NCBI GenBank assembly: GCA_030043155.1
Contig: JASHYE010000322.1
Coordinates: 1 to 9,489 of the forward strand
Origin: Candidatus Acidiferrales bacterium
Lineage (GTDB): Bacteria > Acidobacteriota > Terriglobia > Acidoferrales > UBA7541
Direction of reading: 5' to 3'
DNA length: 9,489 bases
Below, piece by piece: positions 1-8,909 of this stretch. The notes under the pieces were generated by a model. That model did no database searches, was not told where the DNA came from, and saw nothing but the letters and a program-made list of their open reading frames with translations. The position numbers and the translations under genes were made by a program. How positions within the stretch are numbered: the first letter of the stretch is position 1; each line of letters opens with the position of its first letter.

Positions 1-2116
1 GTGATGTGCTCGTGTAACGCGCCTGAAACGTGAAAACGTTGTGTGGCACTTGCTCCACCCATGTATTCACCAGCGAAGGCTGTCCCGGCGCGCTGATAAT
101 CGTTGCGTCCACGAACTGGTATCCACCCGACAACTGAAAGCGATGCGTCATTTGCGCGAGCCAGTCCACTTCGAATCCCGGTGCTCTGGTGCGGCCAAGA
201 TTCGCGCGCACAAACGTCAGAGCGTTCGGCGTAGGAGCAGGACAGATGGACGGAACCGGCGTCACCTGGCACGAAAGGCTGGAAATCGGATTGACGATCT
301 CATTAAAGAAGAAAGCGCCACGCACCTGCAGCCGGTTGCTCAATCCATCTACGGAAACGCCTGCCTCGCCTCCTGTGAGTCGCTCCGCAGTGAGATTTGC
401 GTTCGCATCAGTGAGATTGTTGGCTTGGCGAAAAGAGCGATAAAGCTCGTTGAGCGATGGCGCACGAAATGCGCGATATACCGAGGCTGACCATGAGACA
501 TGTGCGTTCATCGCATGAACGATGCTGGCGCGTGGATCGAAAACATTGTAAGAACGGTTCGCGTAGGGCGTGTTGGTTGCGGGCCGAGCGGGGTCAATTG
601 GTTCGCTGATCAGCAAACCTTCCACATTGCGCCAATCGTCAAATCTCGCACTCATGCCCAGCATCCACGACGGCGCGATCTGAATTAAATCTTCGCCAAA
701 AACGCCGGTAGTTTCCTGATGGCCCCCTGCAAAGGTGTCCTTGGAATTGATTTCGGTCGTCGGCGAAAAAATTTGTTCCTTACTGTGGCCGATTTCTTCG
801 TGCGCGTCAAATCCAGCAACAAGTGTTTGGCGCTTTCCCAATCCGCGCGACCACACCGCTGATCCTCCCACACCCTGGCCCGGGACGGTTTGCAAATCAG
901 TGAGCGCCTCGCTGTTCTGGTTCAGCGCGACCGAGTAAAAACTCTGATGATAGGTTTCAAAGTCTGCGTAGGACCGCAGTTCGAGATTACCCGCCGAACC
1001 GAGGCCCAAGTTCGCTCCAAGGATTCCTTCGCCCAGGCGAATGCCATCGGTCTGGCCAATCGTGCCGTTGTTGCGAGAATCGTCGAAATACGACCCTCGA
1101 ACAAATACATCGCTTTGTGCGCCGATTTTGCGACCAATCGTAAGATCGGCAGTGCCATGCTGAGAATAGGCGCTCGTGTCCACGCTGCCCTGGTCGCTTT
1201 TGGGAACAAGGACATATCCATCGGTGTGAAATGCTTCGCCGGAAAACACCGATTCCCATTGGCCAAGCGATCCTCCCGCCGACAGCGAAACATCTTGAGT
1301 ATTTTGGTTGCCGTAGGAAGTCTCAAGCGAAATGCCGTCAGGCGACGCTGGTCGCGTCAGAAATTGAATGACGCCGCCCAGAGCCTCGCTTCCGTATAGA
1401 CTCGACGCGCCTTCCTGCGCGACTTCAACGCTCGAGACGGAGGCGTCCGGCACGCGGTCCCAATAAACCCATGAACCGAATGGATCGTTTAGCGGAACCC
1501 CGTCGTCGAGCACGAGGACGCGGCTCGCTCCATTTGCACCCAGGCCCCGCAAGGAAACACCTAGCGTGGTCGGGTTTGCCGTGCGGCTGCTGTTTCGACG
1601 AAAGAGGCTGAACCCAGGAACTTGGCGCAGCGTGTCGTCCAAAGTGAGAGCCGGTGTCGTTTGAAGATCATCGCTTGTCAGTTCAATATCGCTCATGGGA
1701 GCTTGTCCGATCGGTGTCGGTGTGCGTGCCGCCGTGACCAGAACCTGCTGGTTCACGGATGCAGCTTGGAGCACGATGGCCAATTGCACTGGTTTCCCGG
1801 AAGCGGCATCCCAATGTTGCTGCGTTTCCTTCATGCCCGATGCACGAATGATGATGGTTCCTGAAGATCCCTTGACGTTCTCGAAATGGAATGACCCGTC
1901 GGCAGACGTAATCGTCTTTGCTGAGTAAGCCGCCGATTGCAGTTCGACTTCAGCTCCGGCAATGGACGCGCCGGTCGCGTCGCGCACAACCCCTTCCACG
2001 CGCGTGCCCTGCGCCGACGCAATGGCGGGAACAACCATCGCCAGAAAAACTGACAGCATCAGCAAGCGCACAAGCATCTCCGCAAGCCCAGGCCGAATCG
2101 TTATGGTCACACGCAT
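1..2116 (-). CDS. TonB-dependent outer-membrane receptor, BtuB-like, 3' end outside window
   Basis: Outer-membrane beta-barrel receptor that takes up a scarce ligand using TonB/ExbBD energy. About 705 codons are open, without a stop, from ATG 2116 to the window edge. In order: signal peptide (hydrophobic core residues 18-33, cleavage near ASA|Q at 36), a carboxypeptidase-regulatory-like beta-sandwich (about 37-118, with VEGVVRDATGASIAGAEVEL), a TonB-box-like VLVTAAR (125-131), a plug domain (about 150-255, with SLRGLGANGASRVLVLDDGV and SLYGSEALGGVIQFLTRP), then barrel strands. The last visible residues (VPHNVFTFQARYTS) resemble the penultimate barrel strands, so perhaps 60-100 residues are missing. 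An in-frame ATG at 2077 gives a more compact signal peptide (MLVRLLMLSVFLAMVVPAIASA) and may be the true start; neither start has a convincing ribosome binding site. Plug style and size resemble BtuB, and the divergent neighbour is a B12-controlled operon, so cobalamin is a plausible ligand, but the substrate is not proven. Siderophore or sugar uptake remains possible. Confidence 0.92.
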   Translation of the reverse strand, partial: MRVTITIRPGLAEMLVRLLMLSVFLAMVVPAIASAQGTRVEGVVRDATGASIAGAEVELQSAAYSAKTITSADGSFHFENVKGSSGTIIIRASGMKETQQHWDAASGKPVQLAIVLQAASVNQQVLVTAARTPTPIGQAPMSDIELTSDDLQTTPALTLDDTLRQVPGFSLFRRNSSRTANPTTLGVSLRGLGANGASRVLVLDDGVPLNDPFGSWVYWDRVPDASVSSVEVAQEGASSLYGSEALGGVIQFLTRPASPDGISLETSYGNQNTQDVSLSAGGSLGQWESVFSGEAFHTDGYVLVPKSDQGSVDTSAYSQHGTADLTIGRKIGAQSDVFVRGSYFDDSRNNGTIGQTDGIRLGEGILGANLGLGSAGNLELRSYADFETYHQSFYSVALNQNSEALTDLQTVPGQGVGGSAVWSRGLGKRQTLVAGFDAHEEIGHSKEQIFSPTTEINSKDTFAGGHQETTGVFGEDLIQIAPSWMLGMSARFDDWRNVEGLLISEPIDPARPATNTPYANRSYNVFDPRASIVHAMNAHVSWSASVYRAFRAPSLNELYRSFRQANNLTDANANLTAERLTGGEAGVSVDGLSNRLQVRGAFFFNEIVNPISSLSCQVTPVPSICPAPTPNALTFVRANLGRTRAPGFEVDWLAQMTHRFQLSGGYQFVDATIISAPGQPSLVNTWVEQVPHNVFTFQARYTSTS

Positions 2117-2443: not shown

Positions 2444-2459
2444 GCACAACATTTAGGTT
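2444..2459 (+). promoter_or_regulatory. Putative NrdR box 1
   Basis: GCACAACATTTAGGTT compared with the published NrdR consensus acaCwAtATaTwGtgt matches 11 of 16 positions, including all six strongly conserved ones (C4, A6, A8, T9, T11, G13). It lies just upstream of and touches the -35 element. NrdR is the zinc-finger/ATP-cone repressor of ribonucleotide reductase genes, and a site immediately in front of nrdA is where it would be expected. The match was made by eye, and no nrdR gene is in the window. Confidence 0.68.
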
Positions 2460-2486
2460 GACAGAAAATGATCAACACCGTATGTT
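2458..2486 (+). promoter_or_regulatory. Sigma70-type promoter of the nrdA-nrdB-thioesterase-metE operon
   Basis: A perfect -35 TTGACA (2458-2463), a 17-bp spacer and a -10 TATGTT (2481-2486) predict a transcript start near 2492-2494. That is precisely where the first riboswitch helix begins, so the leader would start with the aptamer. The leader to the nrdA start codon would be about 300 nt. The two NrdR-like boxes overlap the promoter elements. Confidence 0.8.
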
Positions 2487-2490
2487 GTGC
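2475..2490 (+). promoter_or_regulatory. Putative NrdR box 2
   Basis: ACACCGTATGTTGTGC matches the NrdR consensus at 12 of 16 positions, including five of the six strongly conserved ones (A6 is G). It starts exactly 31 bp after box 1, the roughly three-helical-turn spacing known for tandem NrdR boxes. It covers the -10 element, so binding would block RNA polymerase. Its right half (ATGTTGTGC) is the exact reverse complement of the left half of box 1 (GCACAACAT). Confidence 0.68.
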
Positions 2491-2493
2491 ACC

Positions 2494-2698
2494 GCTTGCT
2501 GGCGGCGTTTCCACAGAAACGCCTAAAGGGAATCCGGTGCAAGTCCGGAACTGCCCCGCAGCGGTAAGCAGGAACGAACACCCAAACACCACTGGTTTTC
2601 TCTGAAACTGGGAAGATGGGTCAGTAGAAAAGCCATTCAAGGAATGGCGATGCCTGCGAGTCCGAAGACCTGCCAGTAGCCACGCTAAACCCGGCGTG
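2494..2698 (+). promoter_or_regulatory. Cobalamin (B12) riboswitch
   Basis: The RNA leader binds adenosylcobalamin or a related cobalamin and represses the genes downstream. Conserved core pieces appear in order: GGGAATCCGGTGCAAG (2528-2543), CTGCCCCGCAGCGGTAA (2551-2567), CCACTG (2589-2594) with CTGGGAAGATGGG (2608-2620), and the closing GAGTCCGAAGACCTGCC (2658-2674). The closing helix pairs CTGGCGG (2499-2505) with CTGCCAG (2670-2676) and is extended by GCT (2494-2496) with AGC (2678-2680). Another hairpin is GCGTTTC/GAAACGC (2505-2511/2516-2522), followed by a 4-bp P5-like stem in the CCGGTG core and a peripheral hairpin GCCATTC/GAATGGC (2632-2648). Directly after the closing helix, CACGC/GCGTG (2681-2685/2694-2698) occupies the P13 position. 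It lies between a good promoter and nrdA, the usual place for cis control. Confidence 0.95.
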
Positions 2699-2703
2699 TA
2701 CAT

Positions 2704-2738
2704 CTCGAGCAAGCCTCCGAGGGGAGGTTGGCGGTGAG
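2704..2738 (+). promoter_or_regulatory. Putative riboswitch expression-platform hairpin
   Basis: CCTCC (2714-2718) pairs with GGAGG (2723-2727) around a GAGG loop. CAA/TTG (2710-2712/2728-2730) extends the stem past a bulged G, with possible outer CTC/GAG pairing (2704-2706/2736-2738). No T-run follows directly, only TTTT at 2745-2748, so it does not read as a standard intrinsic terminator. It may act as an anti-sequestering or sequestering element in translational control of nrdA; the exact switching partner is not clear by eye. Confidence 0.4.
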
Positions 2739-2781
2739 CTAGTGTTTTCAAACTACTCCCATTTCATCCCCTCAGGTGTCA

Positions 2782-2791
2782 GGCGGAAAGG
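2782..2791 (+). promoter_or_regulatory. Ribosome binding site deciding the nrdA start
   Basis: The purine-rich GGCGGAAAGG lies 5 nt before ATG 2797. The in-frame GTG at 2776 is preceded by a C/T-rich stretch without Shine-Dalgarno character, so ATG 2797 is preferred. This site is the likely end target if the riboswitch works by controlling translation. Confidence 0.6.
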
Positions 2792-2796
2792 CATTT

Positions 2797-5172
2797 ATGG
2801 CAACCTCGGCTCGTGTAATCACCAGCGACTCGGTGATTGAGTTCCCTTCGTCCGGAAATTCCTCGCAGATGCACGTTCGCAAGCGCAACGGAAATCTCGA
2901 ACCCGCAGACGTCAACAAAATCGTGCGCGCCGTGGAGCGATGCTGCGAAGGACTGCAATGTGTCGATGCGATCCGCGTTGCTAGCAAAACCATCGGCGGT
3001 TTGTACAACGGTGCGACCACGAAAGAACTAGACCTACTTTCCATTCAGACGGCTGCCTCACTCATCGCAGAGGAACCGGAGTATTCCAAGCTTGCTGCGC
3101 GCCTTCTTGATGGTTTCATCACCAAGGAAGTCACCAATCAAAATATTCATTCGTTCTCGCAGTCCGTTGCTGCGGGGAAACAACACAGCCTCGTCTCGAA
3201 AGAGCTCGCTCTCTTTGTTTCCGAGAACGCGCGAAAGCTGAACGATGCGATTGATGAGAAACGCGCAGAACTTTTTGAGTATTTCGGTCTCCGAACGGTC
3301 TATGACCGCTATTTGTTGCGTAACCCGGAGACTCGCGAGGTGATTGAAACGCCGCAACAATTTTTCCTTCGCGTCAGCTGCGGCCTTTCGCGCACGGTGC
3401 AGGAAGCCGTCGAGTTTTATCGTCTGATTTCCGCGCACGATTACCTACCCAGTTCCCCAACCCTTTTCAACTCCGGCACGAAGCACTCGCAGATGTCTTC
3501 CTGCTACTTGCTCGATTCGCCCGCTGACAATCTCGAAGCAATTTATGAAAAGTACAAAGATGTTGCACTGCTCTCGAAGTTTGCGGGCGGGATTGGCCTT
3601 GCATATCACCGCGTTCGGTCTCGCGGTTCTTTGATCCGCGCGACGAACGGGCACAGCAAGGGAATTGTGCCGTGGCTCAAGACGCTCGATTCTTCCGTCG
3701 CCGCAGTCAACCAAGGAGGAAAGCGAAAAGGGGCTTGTTGTGTTTACCTCGAAACATGGCACGCGGATATCGAGGAGTTCCTGGAACTGCGCGAAAACAC
3801 CGGAGACAACGCGCAACGCACATACAATCTGAACCTCGCGAACTGGATTCCTGATCTCTTCATGAAACGCGTCGAAGCGGATGGAATGTGGTCACTTTTC
3901 GATCCCAAAACTGTTCCGCACTTTCCCGATCTCGTAGCCGAGGAATTCGAAAAAGCATACATCAAAGCTGAGCAGGAGAAACTTTTCGTCCGACAACTAA
4001 AGGCTCGCGATCTCTATGCGCGGATGATGAAGGTGCTTGCGGAGACAGGCAACGGCTGGATGACGTTTAAAGACTCAGCGAACCTGAAATCGAACCAGAC
4101 AGCGAGGCCAGCCAACGTCATTCACTTATCGAATTTGTGCACGGAAATTATGGAAGTCAGCTCGCGGCAAGAGACCGCTGTTTGCAACCTTGGCTCTATC
4201 AATCTCGCAAAACATGTTGCGCCGGGCGGCTTCGATTTTGGGAAGCTCGCTCAAACAGTTCGAATAGCCGTGAAGTTTCTGGACCGCGTCATCGACATCA
4301 ACTTTTATCCCATCTCGCAGGCTGAAGACTCGAACCGGCGTTGGCGTCCAGTGGGCCTCGGTGTCATGGGCTTACAGGACGTATTCTTCACGCTGGGGCT
4401 GCCGTTTGATGCGCCAGAAGCGCGCCCGCTTTCCAGGCGCATTCAGGAAACGATTTATTTTCACGCCCTGAGCGCCTCGTGCGACCTGGCGGCGGAATTC
4501 GGGCCACATCCTGCTTTTGGTGAGACGCGAGCGGCGGAAGGCAGCCTGCAATTCGACGCATGGGGTGTAAATCCAGGAAATGCGCTGCGATGGGAGGATT
4601 TGCGCGGGAAGATCAAAGCGCGCGGCCTGCGCAACTCCCTGCTGATTGCGATCGCGCCCACAGCAACGATTGCGTCGATCGTTGGGTGCTACGAGTGCAT
4701 TGAGCCTCAGGTTTCGAATCTTTTCAAGAGAGAGACACTTTCTGGTGATTTCTTACAGATCAATCGCTATCTGGTTGCTGAACTCAAAAAGTCGAATTTG
4801 TGGAACGAGGAGATGCGTAACCGGCTCAAGCTCTCCGACGGTTCTGTTCAGAACATCGCAGAGATTCCCGACGATGTGCGAGCGGTATACCGAACGGCCT
4901 GGGAAATTCCGATGCGGTCGCTGATTGACATGGCAGCGGACCGTGGCGCATTCATTGACCAGAGCCAATCGTTGAATCTTTTCGTGCTTAGTCCAACCAT
5001 CGGAAAGCTTTCCTCCATGTACATGTATGCGTGGAAGAAAGGCCTCAAAACGACTTATTACCTACGTTCGCGCCCGGCCACGGAAATCGCCAAGACAACG
5101 GTCCCTGTCTCAGCGGCGCAATTCGTGGCTTGCTCTCTCGAAAACCCAGACTCTTGCGAAGCCTGCCAGTAG
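2797..5172 (+). CDS. nrdA: Class Ia ribonucleoside-diphosphate reductase, alpha subunit
   Basis: Cytoplasmic large subunit of the oxygen-dependent ribonucleotide reductase; with NrdB it reduces ribonucleoside diphosphates to deoxyribonucleotides. The 791 residues are close to the E. coli length (761). An N-terminal ATP-cone (about 25-112, starting MHVRKRNGNLEPADVNKIVR) should sense dATP/ATP. The catalytic residues are present: C236 in SSCYLLD and C463 in AVCNLGS (redox pair), N446-C448-E450 in NLCTE (thiyl-radical cysteine and its partners), and tyrosines Y754-Y755 in the radical transfer path. The protein ends CEACQ, with C787/C790 as the shuttle pair that receives electrons from thioredoxin or glutaredoxin; the spacing is CxxC rather than the E. 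coli CxxxxC. It is the first gene after the B12 riboswitch and the NrdR-like boxes, 26 nt ahead of nrdB. The enzyme itself does not use B12, which explains repression by cobalamin when a B12-dependent NrdJ is encoded elsewhere. Confidence 0.97.
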   Translation: MATSARVITSDSVIEFPSSGNSSQMHVRKRNGNLEPADVNKIVRAVERCCEGLQCVDAIRVASKTIGGLYNGATTKELDLLSIQTAASLIAEEPEYSKLAARLLDGFITKEVTNQNIHSFSQSVAAGKQHSLVSKELALFVSENARKLNDAIDEKRAELFEYFGLRTVYDRYLLRNPETREVIETPQQFFLRVSCGLSRTVQEAVEFYRLISAHDYLPSSPTLFNSGTKHSQMSSCYLLDSPADNLEAIYEKYKDVALLSKFAGGIGLAYHRVRSRGSLIRATNGHSKGIVPWLKTLDSSVAAVNQGGKRKGACCVYLETWHADIEEFLELRENTGDNAQRTYNLNLANWIPDLFMKRVEADGMWSLFDPKTVPHFPDLVAEEFEKAYIKAEQEKLFVRQLKARDLYARMMKVLAETGNGWMTFKDSANLKSNQTARPANVIHLSNLCTEIMEVSSRQETAVCNLGSINLAKHVAPGGFDFGKLAQTVRIAVKFLDRVIDINFYPISQAEDSNRRWRPVGLGVMGLQDVFFTLGLPFDAPEARPLSRRIQETIYFHALSASCDLAAEFGPHPAFGETRAAEGSLQFDAWGVNPGNALRWEDLRGKIKARGLRNSLLIAIAPTATIASIVGCYECIEPQVSNLFKRETLSGDFLQINRYLVAELKKSNLWNEEMRNRLKLSDGSVQNIAEIPDDVRAVYRTAWEIPMRSLIDMAADRGAFIDQSQSLNLFVLSPTIGKLSSMYMYAWKKGLKTTYYLRSRPATEIAKTTVPVSAAQFVACSLENPDSCEACQ

Positions 5173-5198
5173 AAACAGCAACACAAAAGGAGAAGGAA

Positions 5199-6197
5199 AT
5201 GATTCTTGATCCGGGATTTGATTTGACATTGCGGCCGATGAAGTATCCGGCCTTCTATGAACAGTACAAAGCAGCAATCAAGAACACGTGGACCGTAGAG
5301 GAAGTAGACTTCTCAACGGACGTGAGCGACTTGCGTCAGCACATGACGCCCGCCGAACAACACCTGATCAATCGTCTTGTCGCCTTCTTTGCCACCGGCG
5401 ACTCCATCGTGGGAAACAACCTTGTGTTGAATCTGTATAAGCACATTAATTCGCCGGAAGCCCGCATGTATCTTTCGCGGCAGCTCTTCGAGGAAGCGCA
5501 GCACGTGGAGTTCTATCTGACGCTGCTCGACACCTATATTGCCGACCAAGAAGAACGTAAACAGGCTTTCGACGCCGTGGAGAACATTCCGTCGATTCGC
5601 AGAAAGGCCGAGTTTTGCTTCAAGTGGATTGACTCGATCCAAGCACTCGACAAAATACAAACAATTGATCAGCGTCGTAACTTCCTGCTGAACCTAATCT
5701 GCTTCGCTTGCTGCATCGAAGGACTCTTTTTCTTCGCCGCTTTTGCCTATGTCTATTTCTTGCGTTCGCGCGGCCTTTTGCATGGGCTGGCGACAGGAAC
5801 AAATTGGGTCTTCAGGGACGAAAGTGCGCACATTCAATTCGCATTCGAAGTAATCCGCACAGTCCGCCGTCAGGAGCCGGAACTCTTCGATCCCAGAATG
5901 GAAGATCGCGTGGTGGAAATGTTGAAAGAAGCCGTGGATTGCGAGATGGCTTTTGCCGAGGACGTTTTGAGTCTCGGCGTCGGAGGGCTGTCGGCAAAAG
6001 ACATGCTCGAATATCTCCGATACGTTGCAGACCGCCGCCTCGAAGCGCTCAGCATTGCGCCGGTGTTTGGCTCAAAAAATCCCTTCGGCTTTATGGAACT
6101 ACAGGATGTGCAAGAGCTGACGAACTTCTTCGAGCGCCGTGTGTCTGCCTATCAGGTGGCCGTCAAGGGCGAAGTGGCTTTCCATGACGACTTCTAG
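5199..6197 (+). CDS. nrdB: Class Ia ribonucleotide reductase, beta (radical) subunit
   Basis: Ferritin-like subunit that houses the diiron-tyrosyl radical cofactor and passes the radical to NrdA. All expected ligands are visible: D68 (ATGDSIV), E99 and H102 (FEEAQH), E174 (CCIEG), E208 and H211 (RDESAH). Radical tyrosine Y106 follows H102 by four residues as in E. coli, so this is a tyrosyl-radical enzyme and not the Phe-containing chlamydial type. The length of 332 residues fits the shorter NrdB forms (E. coli has 376). The C-terminus VAFHDDF is the acidic/aromatic tail that docks on NrdA. The ORF is open upstream to 5031, but that part overlaps nrdA in another frame. ATG 5199 has an ideal AAGGAG (5187-5192) 6 nt ahead and starts the conserved MILDPGFDLTLRPMKYP, so it is chosen. 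The end overlaps the next gene by 14 nt. Confidence 0.97.
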   Translation: MILDPGFDLTLRPMKYPAFYEQYKAAIKNTWTVEEVDFSTDVSDLRQHMTPAEQHLINRLVAFFATGDSIVGNNLVLNLYKHINSPEARMYLSRQLFEEAQHVEFYLTLLDTYIADQEERKQAFDAVENIPSIRRKAEFCFKWIDSIQALDKIQTIDQRRNFLLNLICFACCIEGLFFFAAFAYVYFLRSRGLLHGLATGTNWVFRDESAHIQFAFEVIRTVRRQEPELFDPRMEDRVVEMLKEAVDCEMAFAEDVLSLGVGGLSAKDMLEYLRYVADRRLEALSIAPVFGSKNPFGFMELQDVQELTNFFERRVSAYQVAVKGEVAFHDDF

Positions 6198-6585
6198 CGA
6201 AAATCAATCACCCGAGACACGCATCGTGGAGATGGTGTTCCCGAATCAAGCGAATCATTACGGAACGCTCTTCGGCGGCGATGCCCTTCGACTCATGGAC
6301 ATGGCTGCATTCGTCGCGGCTTCCCGGCACGCAAGGAGGCCGGTGGTCACGGCCAGTTCCGAACGCATTGATTTTCACGTTCCCGTAAGGCAGGGCCAGC
6401 TCGCCGAAGTTGTGGGCCGAGTCACTAAAACTGGACGGACTTCGATGACTGTCGAAGTAGAACTTTGGGCGGAGGACTTGCTGACAGGAGCGCGGCAGCT
6501 TTGCACAAAAGGCAGCTTCGTCCTTGTTGCTGTGGACGAAGGCGGCCGACCCATCGCTATCCCTGGTCCGCCCGCATCGCGTTAG
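6184..6585 (+). CDS. Hotdog-fold acyl-CoA thioesterase (YciA/ACOT-like)
   Basis: Predicted to hydrolyse an acyl-CoA to the free acid and CoA in the cytoplasm. The 133-residue protein has the family signature N24-HY-G27-TLF-G31-G32 followed by D39 (in LRLMDM), the layout of YciA and related acyl-CoA hydrolases, where the Asp is catalytic. Later hotdog segments fit too: RIDFHVPVRQGQ (61-72) and the strand GRTSMTVEVELWAEDL. ATG 6184 overlaps the nrdB end by 14 nt in another frame, so translation is probably coupled; the upstream purine run AAGGGCGAAG is a weak ribosome binding site. A longer open frame reaches 6139, but that extension has no thioesterase character. The acyl-CoA substrate cannot be read from sequence. 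Its place between nrdB and metE in a B12-repressed unit is unusual. It may serve CoA recycling when B12-dependent methylmalonyl-CoA mutase is idle, which is my inference. Confidence 0.87.
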   Translation: MTTSSENQSPETRIVEMVFPNQANHYGTLFGGDALRLMDMAAFVAASRHARRPVVTASSERIDFHVPVRQGQLAEVVGRVTKTGRTSMTVEVELWAEDLLTGARQLCTKGSFVLVAVDEGGRPIAIPGPPASR

Positions 6586-6605
6586 AAACGCAGAAACGAG
6601 GCTAT

Positions 6606-8909
6606 ATGGCAATTGCGACGAATCTTGGTTTTCCGAGGATGGGCGTTCATCGCGAGTTGAAGAAAGAGCTCGAAACTTACTGGGCAGGAAAGAGTAGCGC
6701 CAGCGATCTATTTTCTGTTGGGCGAGTCTTGCGAACGAATCATTGGGTTCTGCAAAAACAGGCGGGAATTCATCACATTCCATCAAACGACTTTTCCTTC
6801 TACGATCACGTGCTGGATACAGCCGCGATGGTTGGAGCTGTTCCCGAACACTACGACTGGAAAGGCCCGCAAGTGGATCTGGACACGTATTTCGCCATGG
6901 CGCGTGGCGTGGCAGAAAAGGCGGGGAAGAAGGCACTTCCCGCCATGGAAATGACAAAATGGTTCGACACGAACTATCACTACATCGTGCCGGAATTTGT
7001 AAAGGGTCAGGAATTCTCTTTGGGCTCGCTGAAACCCATAAGCGAGTTTCTTGAAGCGAAATCCTTGGGAATCCCCACGCGGTGCGTGCTCCTTGGACCT
7101 GTATCATTTCTGCTCTTAGGAAAAATGAAAGACGCAGATGCTGATCCGCTCTCGTTGCTTGATCGCATCTTACCTATCTATGAAGAGGTTCTCGGTAGGC
7201 TGGCCGAATCGGGTGCCGATTGGGTGCAAATCGACGAACCCGTTCTGCCATTGCAGTCGCGCGAAGAGACGCGGAAAGCTTTCGTGTCGGCCTATGAACG
7301 GCTCGCGCAAGTTTCTTCGAGCCTGCGCATCCTTGTTGCGACGTACTTCGCTGGCCTTGGAACGAACATGCAAACCGCACTTCGTCTGCCCGTGGCAGCC
7401 CTGCATCTCGACTTGGTTCGTGCTCCCGAGCAACTGGAACACGCCTTGACGGACATTCCGGCAAACTTGATGCTGTCACTGGGCATCGTTGACGGTCGCA
7501 ATATCTGGAAAACAAATCTACAGCGTGCCTTCCATCTCATTGAACGCGCCGCAGGTTCGCTAGGCCACGACCGGATTCTAGTCGCCCCCTCGTGCTCGCT
7601 CCTGCATAGCCCAGCTGACCTCGACGAAGAAAAACACTTGGATGGTGAACTTCGAAATTGGCTCGCCTTTGCGAAACAGAAACTCGAAGAAGTTGTCGCC
7701 TTGCAACGTGCACTTTCGGGCGGACGGGACGCGATTCAAGACTTTCTGGACGCCAACGAGAGTGCAATGCGTTCTCGCAAAAAATCAGCGAAGATTCACA
7801 AGCCGGAAGTGAAGCAACGAAGTGCCGCTGTCACGGAAGCTATGTTTGTTAGGAGGACGCCGCATGCTGAGCGCAAGAAAATCCAGCAACAACGCCTGAA
7901 CCTGCCGCTGTTTCCAACCACCACCATTGGCTCGTTTCCGCAAACCAAGGAAGTGCGCGAGGCTCGCGCCTCACACAAGGCGGGAAAGCGAGATGATTCG
8001 TCCTACGAAGCATTTCTCCGTTCGCAGACCGAAGACGCCATCCGTTTTCAGGAGGGAATCGGTCTGGACGTGTTGGTGCACGGCGAGTTCGAGAGAAACG
8101 ACATGGTCGAATACTTCGGCGAACAGCTGGAGGGATTTGCCGCGACCGAAAACGGGTGGGTACAAAGCTACGGTTCGCGGTGCGTGAAGCCGCCGGTGAT
8201 CTATGGAGATATTTTTCGCCAGGGCCCGATGACGGTAAAATGGTCGAAATACGCGCAAACACTCACCGCCAAGCCAATGAAAGGAATGCTCACGGGACCA
8301 GTCACGATTTTGCAGTGGTCTTTTGTGCGGGACGACCAGCCGAGATCGGAAACGTGCCGACAAATAGCTCTGGCCATCCGTGACGAAGTAGCTGACCTCG
8401 AAGCCGCGGGAATCGCGGTCATTCAAATCGACGAGCCTGCTCTGCGTGAAGGACTGCCACTTCTGCGCTCCGAATGGGCTGACTATCTTTCGTGGGCTGT
8501 TGATTGTTTCCGGCTCGCTTCATCGTCCGTTCGTGACGAAACGCAAATTCACACACACATGTGCTACGCCGAATTCCAAGACATTATTGAAGCTGTTACG
8601 AAGATGGACGCGGATGTCATCTCTATCGAAACTTCTCGCTCGCAAATGGAACTACTCGACACGTTCGCACACTATAACTATCCCAACGATATAGGGCCTG
8701 GCGTTTACGATATTCATTCTCCCCGTGTTCCGCCTTCCCAAGAGATGCTGGCGCTGCTGCGAAAAGCGGCAAAGGTCCTATCGCCCGAACAGTTGTGGGT
8801 GAATCCTGACTGCGGACTGAAGACAAGGCGATGGGAAGAAGTCCGGCCAGCATTGGTCGCGATGGTGACGGCTGCGCTCGCTATGCGCGCTCAATTTCAG
8901 CGCGTATAG
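6606..8909 (+). CDS. metE: Cobalamin-independent methionine synthase
   Basis: Transfers the methyl group of 5-methyltetrahydropteroyl-triglutamate to homocysteine without B12; last step of methionine synthesis, in the cytoplasm. The 767 residues are close to E. coli MetE (753). The N-terminal barrel opens with LGFPRMGVHRELKKELETYW. After a charged linker (about 385-430) the C-terminal barrel begins at FPTTTIGSFPQTKEVR (436-451), the homocysteine-binding loop. The zinc ligands are H651 and C653 (HTHMC), E675 (ISIETS) and C736 (NPDCGLKT), each exactly ten positions after the E. coli ligands; the catalytic acid His is H704 (YDIHSPRVPP). The start ATG 6606 has GAGG 4 nt ahead and lies 20 nt after the thioesterase stop. 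The frame is open upstream to 6465, but that part overlaps the thioesterase. No SAM riboswitch or separate promoter was seen in front of it, so control probably comes from the B12 riboswitch 4 kb upstream. Confidence 0.97.
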   Translation: MAIATNLGFPRMGVHRELKKELETYWAGKSSASDLFSVGRVLRTNHWVLQKQAGIHHIPSNDFSFYDHVLDTAAMVGAVPEHYDWKGPQVDLDTYFAMARGVAEKAGKKALPAMEMTKWFDTNYHYIVPEFVKGQEFSLGSLKPISEFLEAKSLGIPTRCVLLGPVSFLLLGKMKDADADPLSLLDRILPIYEEVLGRLAESGADWVQIDEPVLPLQSREETRKAFVSAYERLAQVSSSLRILVATYFAGLGTNMQTALRLPVAALHLDLVRAPEQLEHALTDIPANLMLSLGIVDGRNIWKTNLQRAFHLIERAAGSLGHDRILVAPSCSLLHSPADLDEEKHLDGELRNWLAFAKQKLEEVVALQRALSGGRDAIQDFLDANESAMRSRKKSAKIHKPEVKQRSAAVTEAMFVRRTPHAERKKIQQQRLNLPLFPTTTIGSFPQTKEVREARASHKAGKRDDSSYEAFLRSQTEDAIRFQEGIGLDVLVHGEFERNDMVEYFGEQLEGFAATENGWVQSYGSRCVKPPVIYGDIFRQGPMTVKWSKYAQTLTAKPMKGMLTGPVTILQWSFVRDDQPRSETCRQIALAIRDEVADLEAAGIAVIQIDEPALREGLPLLRSEWADYLSWAVDCFRLASSSVRDETQIHTHMCYAEFQDIIEAVTKMDADVISIETSRSQMELLDTFAHYNYPNDIGPGVYDIHSPRVPPSQEMLALLRKAAKVLSPEQLWVNPDCGLKTRRWEEVRPALVAMVTAALAMRAQFQRV

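Follow-up and report, generated by a model that had tools for sequence, protein, structure and literature searches.

A cobalamin-riboswitch operon of nrdAB, metE and a recurring hotdog thioesterase: a probable B12-starvation module in an acidobacterium

Introduction

Cobalamin (B12) riboswitch regulons are usually described in terms of uptake, synthesis, and backup enzymes, the last being a ribonucleotide reductase (RNR) and a methionine synthase. We analyzed contig JASHYE010000322.1 (GenBank assembly GCA_030043155.1) of Candidatus Acidiferrales bacterium, a stretch of 9,489 nucleotides (nt) that we call the window. It carries one cobalamin aptamer followed by nrdA, nrdB, a gene for a hotdog acyl-CoA thioesterase (TE), and metE. 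An earlier note on this DNA, made from its letters alone, had proposed a single B12-repressed operon of B12-independent isozymes.

The Streptomyces nrdABS operon is reportedly controlled by a B12 riboswitch (work attributed to Borovok, 2006) and would thus resemble the window in regulating a class Ia RNR through this element; it is not known to contain metE or a TE. Mycobacterial metE is also said to lie under a cobalamin riboswitch and would share with the window an aptamer before the B12-independent methionine synthase. The same likeness holds for Chlorobium, where metE and the RNR gene nrdD lie under separate cobalamin aptamers.

In Bacillus methanolicus MGA3, metE and nrdAB are each preceded by an adenosylcobalamin (AdoCbl) riboswitch of their own (PMC4342826). 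As in the window, cobalamin aptamers stand before both kinds of backup gene in a single genome; there, however, each of the two transcripts has its own aptamer and a TE is not named, whereas the window has one aptamer for both and a TE. A comparative study of cobalamin-riboswitch regulons has a category of "isozymes of B12-dependent enzymes" (PMC3766115), with the same aptamer class and logic as the window operon; its main text lacks the terms nrd, metE, and thioesterase. In the portions of the cobalamin-riboswitch literature available, with the founding B12-element surveys outside this scope, we found no description of a thioesterase in a B12 regulon or of a joint nrdAB-metE operon, and neither is described in the available parts of PMC8620254, PMC8123684, PMC5948670, PMC4465626, and PMC12013260.

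Results

We identify a complete cobalamin aptamer before nrdA, as the earlier note had claimed. It is the only RF00174 match found by cmscan in the window and spans 2483-2691 on the plus strand over the full model (1-189; 103.3 bits, E 1.4e-25, cut-off 31.5); with covariance model R1 it scores 138.4 bits, the window being among the 19 sequences from which R1 was built. Four packed plus-strand genes follow, nrdA (2797-5172), nrdB (5199-6197), TE (6184-6585), and metE (6606-8909), separated by 26, -14 (a 14-nt overlap), and 20 nt, exactly the spacing given in the note. NrdA is a class I RNR large subunit (TIGR02506, 716 bits, cut-off 341; PF02867, PF00317, and PF03477; 678 bits against PDB 5d1y), and its 356 bits with TIGR02504, the model of B12-dependent NrdJ, fall below the cut-off of 400, so it is not an NrdJ. 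NrdB, the small subunit, matches PF00268 with 282 bits, above the Pfam cut-off, while its best NCBIfam model gives 270 bits, below a cut-off of 309; it has Tyr at the radical position (FEEAQHVEFY, by alignment to 2ani). MetE exceeds the cut-offs of NF003556 (1150 bits) and TIGR01371 (1102 bits) and contains both MetE domains, PF01717 and PF08267. The nearest MetE proteins, on short NCBI contigs, are 95-96% identical. Of the first four rows of our nrdA scan (72-74% identity), two are Acidobacteriota and the other two carry the label Elusimicrobia.

Just 5' of the aptamer, a consensus scan places a promoter-like site on the plus strand (TTGACA-17-TATGTT, 2458-2486, 10/12), from which transcription would start at the aptamer's 5' edge. 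Such sites are no more numerous in the window than expected by chance (2 versus 3.1), and the second, at 5629, lies inside nrdB; the placement of the first fits a promoter for an aptamer-headed operon. Directly before metE the scan finds no promoter-like site. The plus-strand leader between aptamer and nrdA (2692-2796) carries the Shine-Dalgarno-like GGCGGAAAGG, which gives ATG 2797 the better such site of the two possible nrdA starts, the other being the GTG at 2776 given in the list of open reading frames (ORFs). As the scan of this leader finds no terminator-like site on the plus strand, translational control of the operon would be a guess; the leader's fold, examined for Shine-Dalgarno sequestration, has a z of -1.9. 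Together, the aptamer, the gene set, the close packing, and the negative promoter scan just ahead of metE agree with the single B12-repressed operon that the note had predicted.

The pairing of nrdAB and metE under one aptamer is not peculiar to the window; it recurs in two phyla, and the survey of related gene orders that the note had suggested finds one aptamer heading nrdAB and metE in four genomes (our handles G009, G098, G010, and G952; loci are numbered L). The order is aptamer-nrdA-nrdB-metE in L021/G009 and L232/G952, aptamer-metE-nrdA-nrdB in L023/G010 (Singulisphaera acidiphila), and aptamer-TE-nrdA-nrdB-metE in L113/G098. MetE matches of at least 697 bits occur in 13 of 297 Acidobacteriota genomes (the G143 copy is split over two contigs), and nrdAB lies directly upstream of metE in four of these 13, with one aptamer in G009 and G098 and two in G073 and G207, one before nrdA and the second directly before metE. 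Such gene rows with two cobalamin aptamers, before nrdA and between nrdB and metE, are seen in L111 (3791-3984 and 7558-7750) and L112 (3823-4016 and 7589-7775). In Planctomycetota, 22 of 294 genomes have MetE at E <= 1e-150; nrd genes adjoin metE in five of the 22, two of them aptamer-headed (G010 and G952), and no aptamer was found in the regions retrieved for the other three (G821, G800, and G979). In a further nrdA-nrdB-metE row, L016, labelled Nitrospira, the contig stops 77 nt from nrdA and leaves no leader to be seen. One Acidobacteriota metE, in L092, is preceded by a SAM riboswitch (4021-4139, minus strand), not a cobalamin one.

Of the 80 loci ranked highest for nrdA similarity, 20 have an RF00174-type aptamer shortly upstream of nrdA by model R1, which was partly built from them; because several of these loci begin near the edge of a contig, the scan can miss aptamers there. 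Another of the 80, in an Acidobacteriaceae metagenome-assembled genome (L014), has an aptamer of the AdoCbl-II type (RF01689) before nrdA, at 7732-7808. The nrdA match in L018, labelled Comamonas, has the same span and identity as the Corallococcus one (L017), and its label may be wrong.

The G098 row (L113) has an aptamer of 93 bits, and its TE and metE are 69% and 60% identical to those of the window. Its RNR subunits are just 42% and 36% identical, and its NrdB (6229-7233) has Phe where the window has the radical Tyr, which we take to indicate a class Ic-like RNR. Second-type RNRs near metE were also seen in L188 (3033-4028) and L229-L231. Elsewhere G098 has an NrdJ-model match that scores 586 bits over the frame. 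Its MetH scores 1480 bits, and with a pair of mutases besides, it has B12-dependent counterparts for all three functions. Among 14 genomes with nrdAB, TE, or metE rows, not all of them with the full operon, MetH is above cut-off in 13, an NrdJ-model match in 12, and a CoA mutase in nine.

The third gene, which might have passed for an odd passenger in this operon, turns out to be a repeated member of B12-backup loci. The window TE matches PF03061 (4HBT) with 76.2 bits versus 20.6, has relatives in PDB 2gvh and 2eis, and belongs to the same fold family as the YciA/Acot7-type hotdog acyl-CoA thioesterases (PDB 2eis, 2gvh, and 1yli). It exceeds no NCBIfam cut-off; its 54.8 bits with the YciA equivalog NF007970, against a cut-off of 162, make it a relative of YciA rather than YciA. 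Its motif is NHYGTLFGG..L..MD. The catalytic Asp is kept as the D of MD, which, as judged from alignment ranges, would match Asp44 of Haemophilus influenzae YciA, a residue found catalytic by mutagenesis (PMC2698920).

A TE relative lies within 285 nt after nrdB in eight of the best 80 nrdA loci (L037, L039, L052, L053, L056, L057, L067, and L076), five of which have an aptamer before nrdA (L037, L039, L056, L057, and L076), and at larger distance in four more. In Acidobacteriota, Xanthomonadales, Alphaproteobacteria, and Thermus, close TE relatives adjoin B12-independent backups, namely nrd genes of class I, metE, or the prp (2-methylcitrate) operon. Among plasmids we examined six loci, picked from the best 30 of 298 matching records. 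Thermus pTT27 has aptamer-TE-nrdB-nrdA (aptamer score 32.7 bits, cut-off 31.5), the order of the laboratory strain Thermus thermophilus HB8, and its TE (L150) is identical in sequence to PDB 2eis ("TTHB207"). A Novosphingobium plasmid has aptamer-DUF1852-metE core-TE-acnD-prpF-prpC-prpB; on a Sphingomonas plasmid one of two divergent aptamers heads TE as first gene and the other the DUF1852-metE core; and a Shinella plasmid has aptamer-metE-TE followed by aptamer-nrdHIEF. A Cereibacter plasmid carries TE-prpD-prpC-prpB and no aptamer upstream of TE. The Azospirillum locus (L153) has no nrd, metE, or prp gene within 8 kb of TE; there (8001-14729) TE is followed by an aptamer with the methylenetetrahydrofolate reductase gene metF and, about 4.3 kb on, a CoA mutase gene, all within about 7 kb. 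Its TE lacks the catalytic Asp and carries Gly or Ala there. Rows of TE-prpD-prpC-prpB stand beside a short-chain acyl-CoA regulator in L152, L188, L192, and L193, and a TE-metE pair occupies L114 (6712-9465) in the 2.4 Mb genome G022.

A TE match at E <= 0.001 occurs in 191 of the 297 Acidobacteriota genomes, and one at E <= 1e-15 in 133 of the 398 Pseudomonadota genomes. From each phylum thirty TE loci, no two from the same genome, were kept and compared with 22 query proteins; the flanks covered reached 1.5 kb, or less where a contig ended, as in L123, L125, L135, L141, and L172. An nrd, metE, or prp neighbour within 1.5 kb accompanied 14 of the 16 TE loci most similar to that of the window versus none of the 44 others (Fisher value 7e-12, which ignores kinship and follows a split made after the scores were seen). 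By phylum, both of Acidobacteriota loci 1-2 have nrd or metE neighbours and loci 3-30 none (0/28), and Pseudomonadota loci 1-14 (at least 123 bits) are linked in 12 cases versus 0/16 for loci 15-30 (100-114 bits). One of the two exceptions in the top group (L161) has nrdB about 4 kb off on the same strand and an aptamer before nrdA (L186); the other (L167/L191) has no relevant neighbour that we found. A cobalamin aptamer lies within 10 kb of TE in 13/14 top versus 0/16 other Pseudomonadota loci, a count based on matches on the TE's own contig, leaving out a single G727 row some 2.5 Mb distant, together with a few further rows. In eight of the 14 it is upstream on the strand of TE.

Sequence motif and tree follow this association in part. 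NH.GTLFGG is present in the linked TEs compared, as well as in L191 and L153, apart from the second domains of double-domain forms, which read NSSGRMFGG (L154) or LYGG (L155 and L190). It is absent from all 44 unlinked loci, 16 of which, in Pseudomonadota, have NHH[N/D]TLFGG or NHYDTLFGG. Asn-Pro versus Asn-His was rejected as a mark of linked TEs, since those 16 have Asn-His too; the Gly of NH.GTLFGG does separate linked from unlinked Pseudomonadota TEs. In a tree of 79 TE domains, with few columns and many open forks, the "linked" label changes five times versus 25.2 in shuffles, and the TEs of the window and L113 pair at 99/94.

In three nrdAB-TE loci an aptamer stands directly before queH, convergent with nrdAB-TE (L195, 14558-15268, minus strand; L196, 12235-12945, minus strand; L197, 2288-2998, plus strand). 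We take QueH to be an epoxyqueuosine reductase and the B12-independent counterpart of QueG. The queH-aptamer observation extends to L053, where queH follows metE, and to L066. QueG is called Cbl-dependent in B. subtilis (PMC9600662).

Divergent from the window operon lies a TonB-dependent receptor gene (2-2116, minus strand) with an N-terminal carboxypeptidase-regulatory-like domain; its partial models, two TonB haem families and then TonB-B12, are all below cut-off, and BtuB was rejected as its identity (TIGR01779, 80/600 bits, third after the haem models). The cmscan of the window finds no aptamer on the receptor's strand. A match to a Yersinia small RNA at 2020-2101 (16.5 bits, cut-off 58) was taken as chance. 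Downstream of metE, an ORF from 9095 on the plus strand encodes a glucose/sorbosone dehydrogenase-type protein (PF07995).

Discussion

We propose, as the probable reading, that the window holds a B12-starvation operon, nrdA-nrdB-TE-metE, in which TE relieves acyl-CoA build-up. When adenosylcobalamin is plentiful, it would bind the aptamer and lower expression of all four genes, because MetH, NrdJ, and acyl-CoA mutases, which depend on B12, then suffice. Under cobalamin shortage all four would be made together: NrdAB would supply deoxynucleotides in place of NrdJ, MetE would supply methionine in place of MetH, and TE may free CoA by hydrolysing short acyl-CoAs, of propionyl, methylmalonyl, or similar type, that accumulate when AdoCbl-dependent mutases stall. 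Membership of TE in a predicted B12 regulon is well supported by its neighbourhoods, including those of G748, G449, and G657, where the nearby aptamer heads queH, another B12-independent backup, and TE is probably an extra arm of the B12-starvation response.

As to substrate, the TE-prpDCB loci with their acyl-CoA regulator, together with the mutase neighbour in Azospirillum, point to a CoA of the propionyl type. A distant relative, YciA of H. influenzae, raised propionate output about 10-fold in a prpC prpE deletion strain of P. putida (PMC9399607), and YciA enzymes also act on the CoA forms of 2-methylsuccinic and mesaconic acid, releasing the acids (PMC9529712).

Several observations weigh against this reading. 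In five of the 13 Pseudomonadota loci with an aptamer near TE, it is not upstream of TE and heads queH (G748, G449, and G657), nrd genes and metE (G555), or the DUF1852-metE core (G632). Thermus and G022 TEs branch with the 16 unlinked Pseudomonadota TEs (98/90), so linked TEs do not form one clade, and the top group holds close relatives (Xanthomonadales), so its counts are not independent. G009 and G335 have no NrdJ match above cut-off. Mutase genes are not clearly enriched in genomes with TE (11/14 versus 18/26 controls), and we therefore keep the substrate claim low; five of the 11 mutase-bearing genomes have long fused forms, presumably of the IcmF type. G748, G449, G657, and G327 have nrdAB-TE and no mutase match, and G022, with its TE-metE pair, has no mutase, no MetH above cut-off, and no aptamer nearby. 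A methylcitrate-synthase-type match (TIGR01800) is above cut-off in 20 of the 24 genomes searched with it, which means that propionyl-CoA often has a further sink that needs no B12. Finally, five prp-linked TEs (L151, L152, L188, L192, and L193) have Gly or Ala where the catalytic Asp would stand and therefore may not hydrolyse at all.

The alternative that survives best, though we think it somewhat unlikely, is that TE acts outside mutase relief, for example in general acyl-CoA housekeeping or on a thioester connected with methionine or one-carbon stress. The five mutase-less genomes that pair TE with metE or nrdAB favour it, as do the aptamer-headed metF near the Azospirillum TE and the similar frequency of mutases in controls. 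It accounts less readily for the four TE-prpDCB loci with an acyl-CoA regulator, and those solved relatives that have functional names are acyl-CoA hydrolases or thioesterases.

We regard it as unlikely that the B12-repressed operon is a backup for nrdAB and metE alone, with TE a neutral passenger on mobile B12-independence cassettes. Several nrdAB-metE rows do lack TE (L021, L111, L112, L023, and L232), mutases are missing from some TE genomes, and the TE substrate is itself only predicted. Yet a neutral passenger would not be expected to change partners inside one functional theme: TE is found with nrdAB, metE, and prpDCB in differing orders, and on the Sphingomonas plasmid no other gene stands between it and its aptamer. 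Separate transcription, in which the aptamer would control nrdAB and metE would have its own promoter, has a precedent of sorts in the second aptamer of G073 and G207 and is very improbable for the window, given its tight gaps, its single aptamer, and no promoter-like site found directly before metE.

We therefore favour the B12-starvation operon with TE as acyl-CoA relief, and we offer more tentatively a wider extension, in which NH.GTLFGG TEs would form a systematic arm of cobalamin-riboswitch regulons in several phyla, relieving CoA-thioester build-up, while the Asp-less prp-linked forms may bind or sense. What is new is the TE that recurs beside B12-independent backups; the joint nrdAB-metE operon itself is a variant of known aptamer-controlled backups. 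The repeated placement of TE beside these backups and beside the 2-methylcitrate operon suggests an arm missing from current descriptions of B12 riboswitch regulons, one directed at the acyl-CoA jam that B12 shortage may cause, and it gives a candidate role to two structural-genomics structures, 2EIS and 2GVH.

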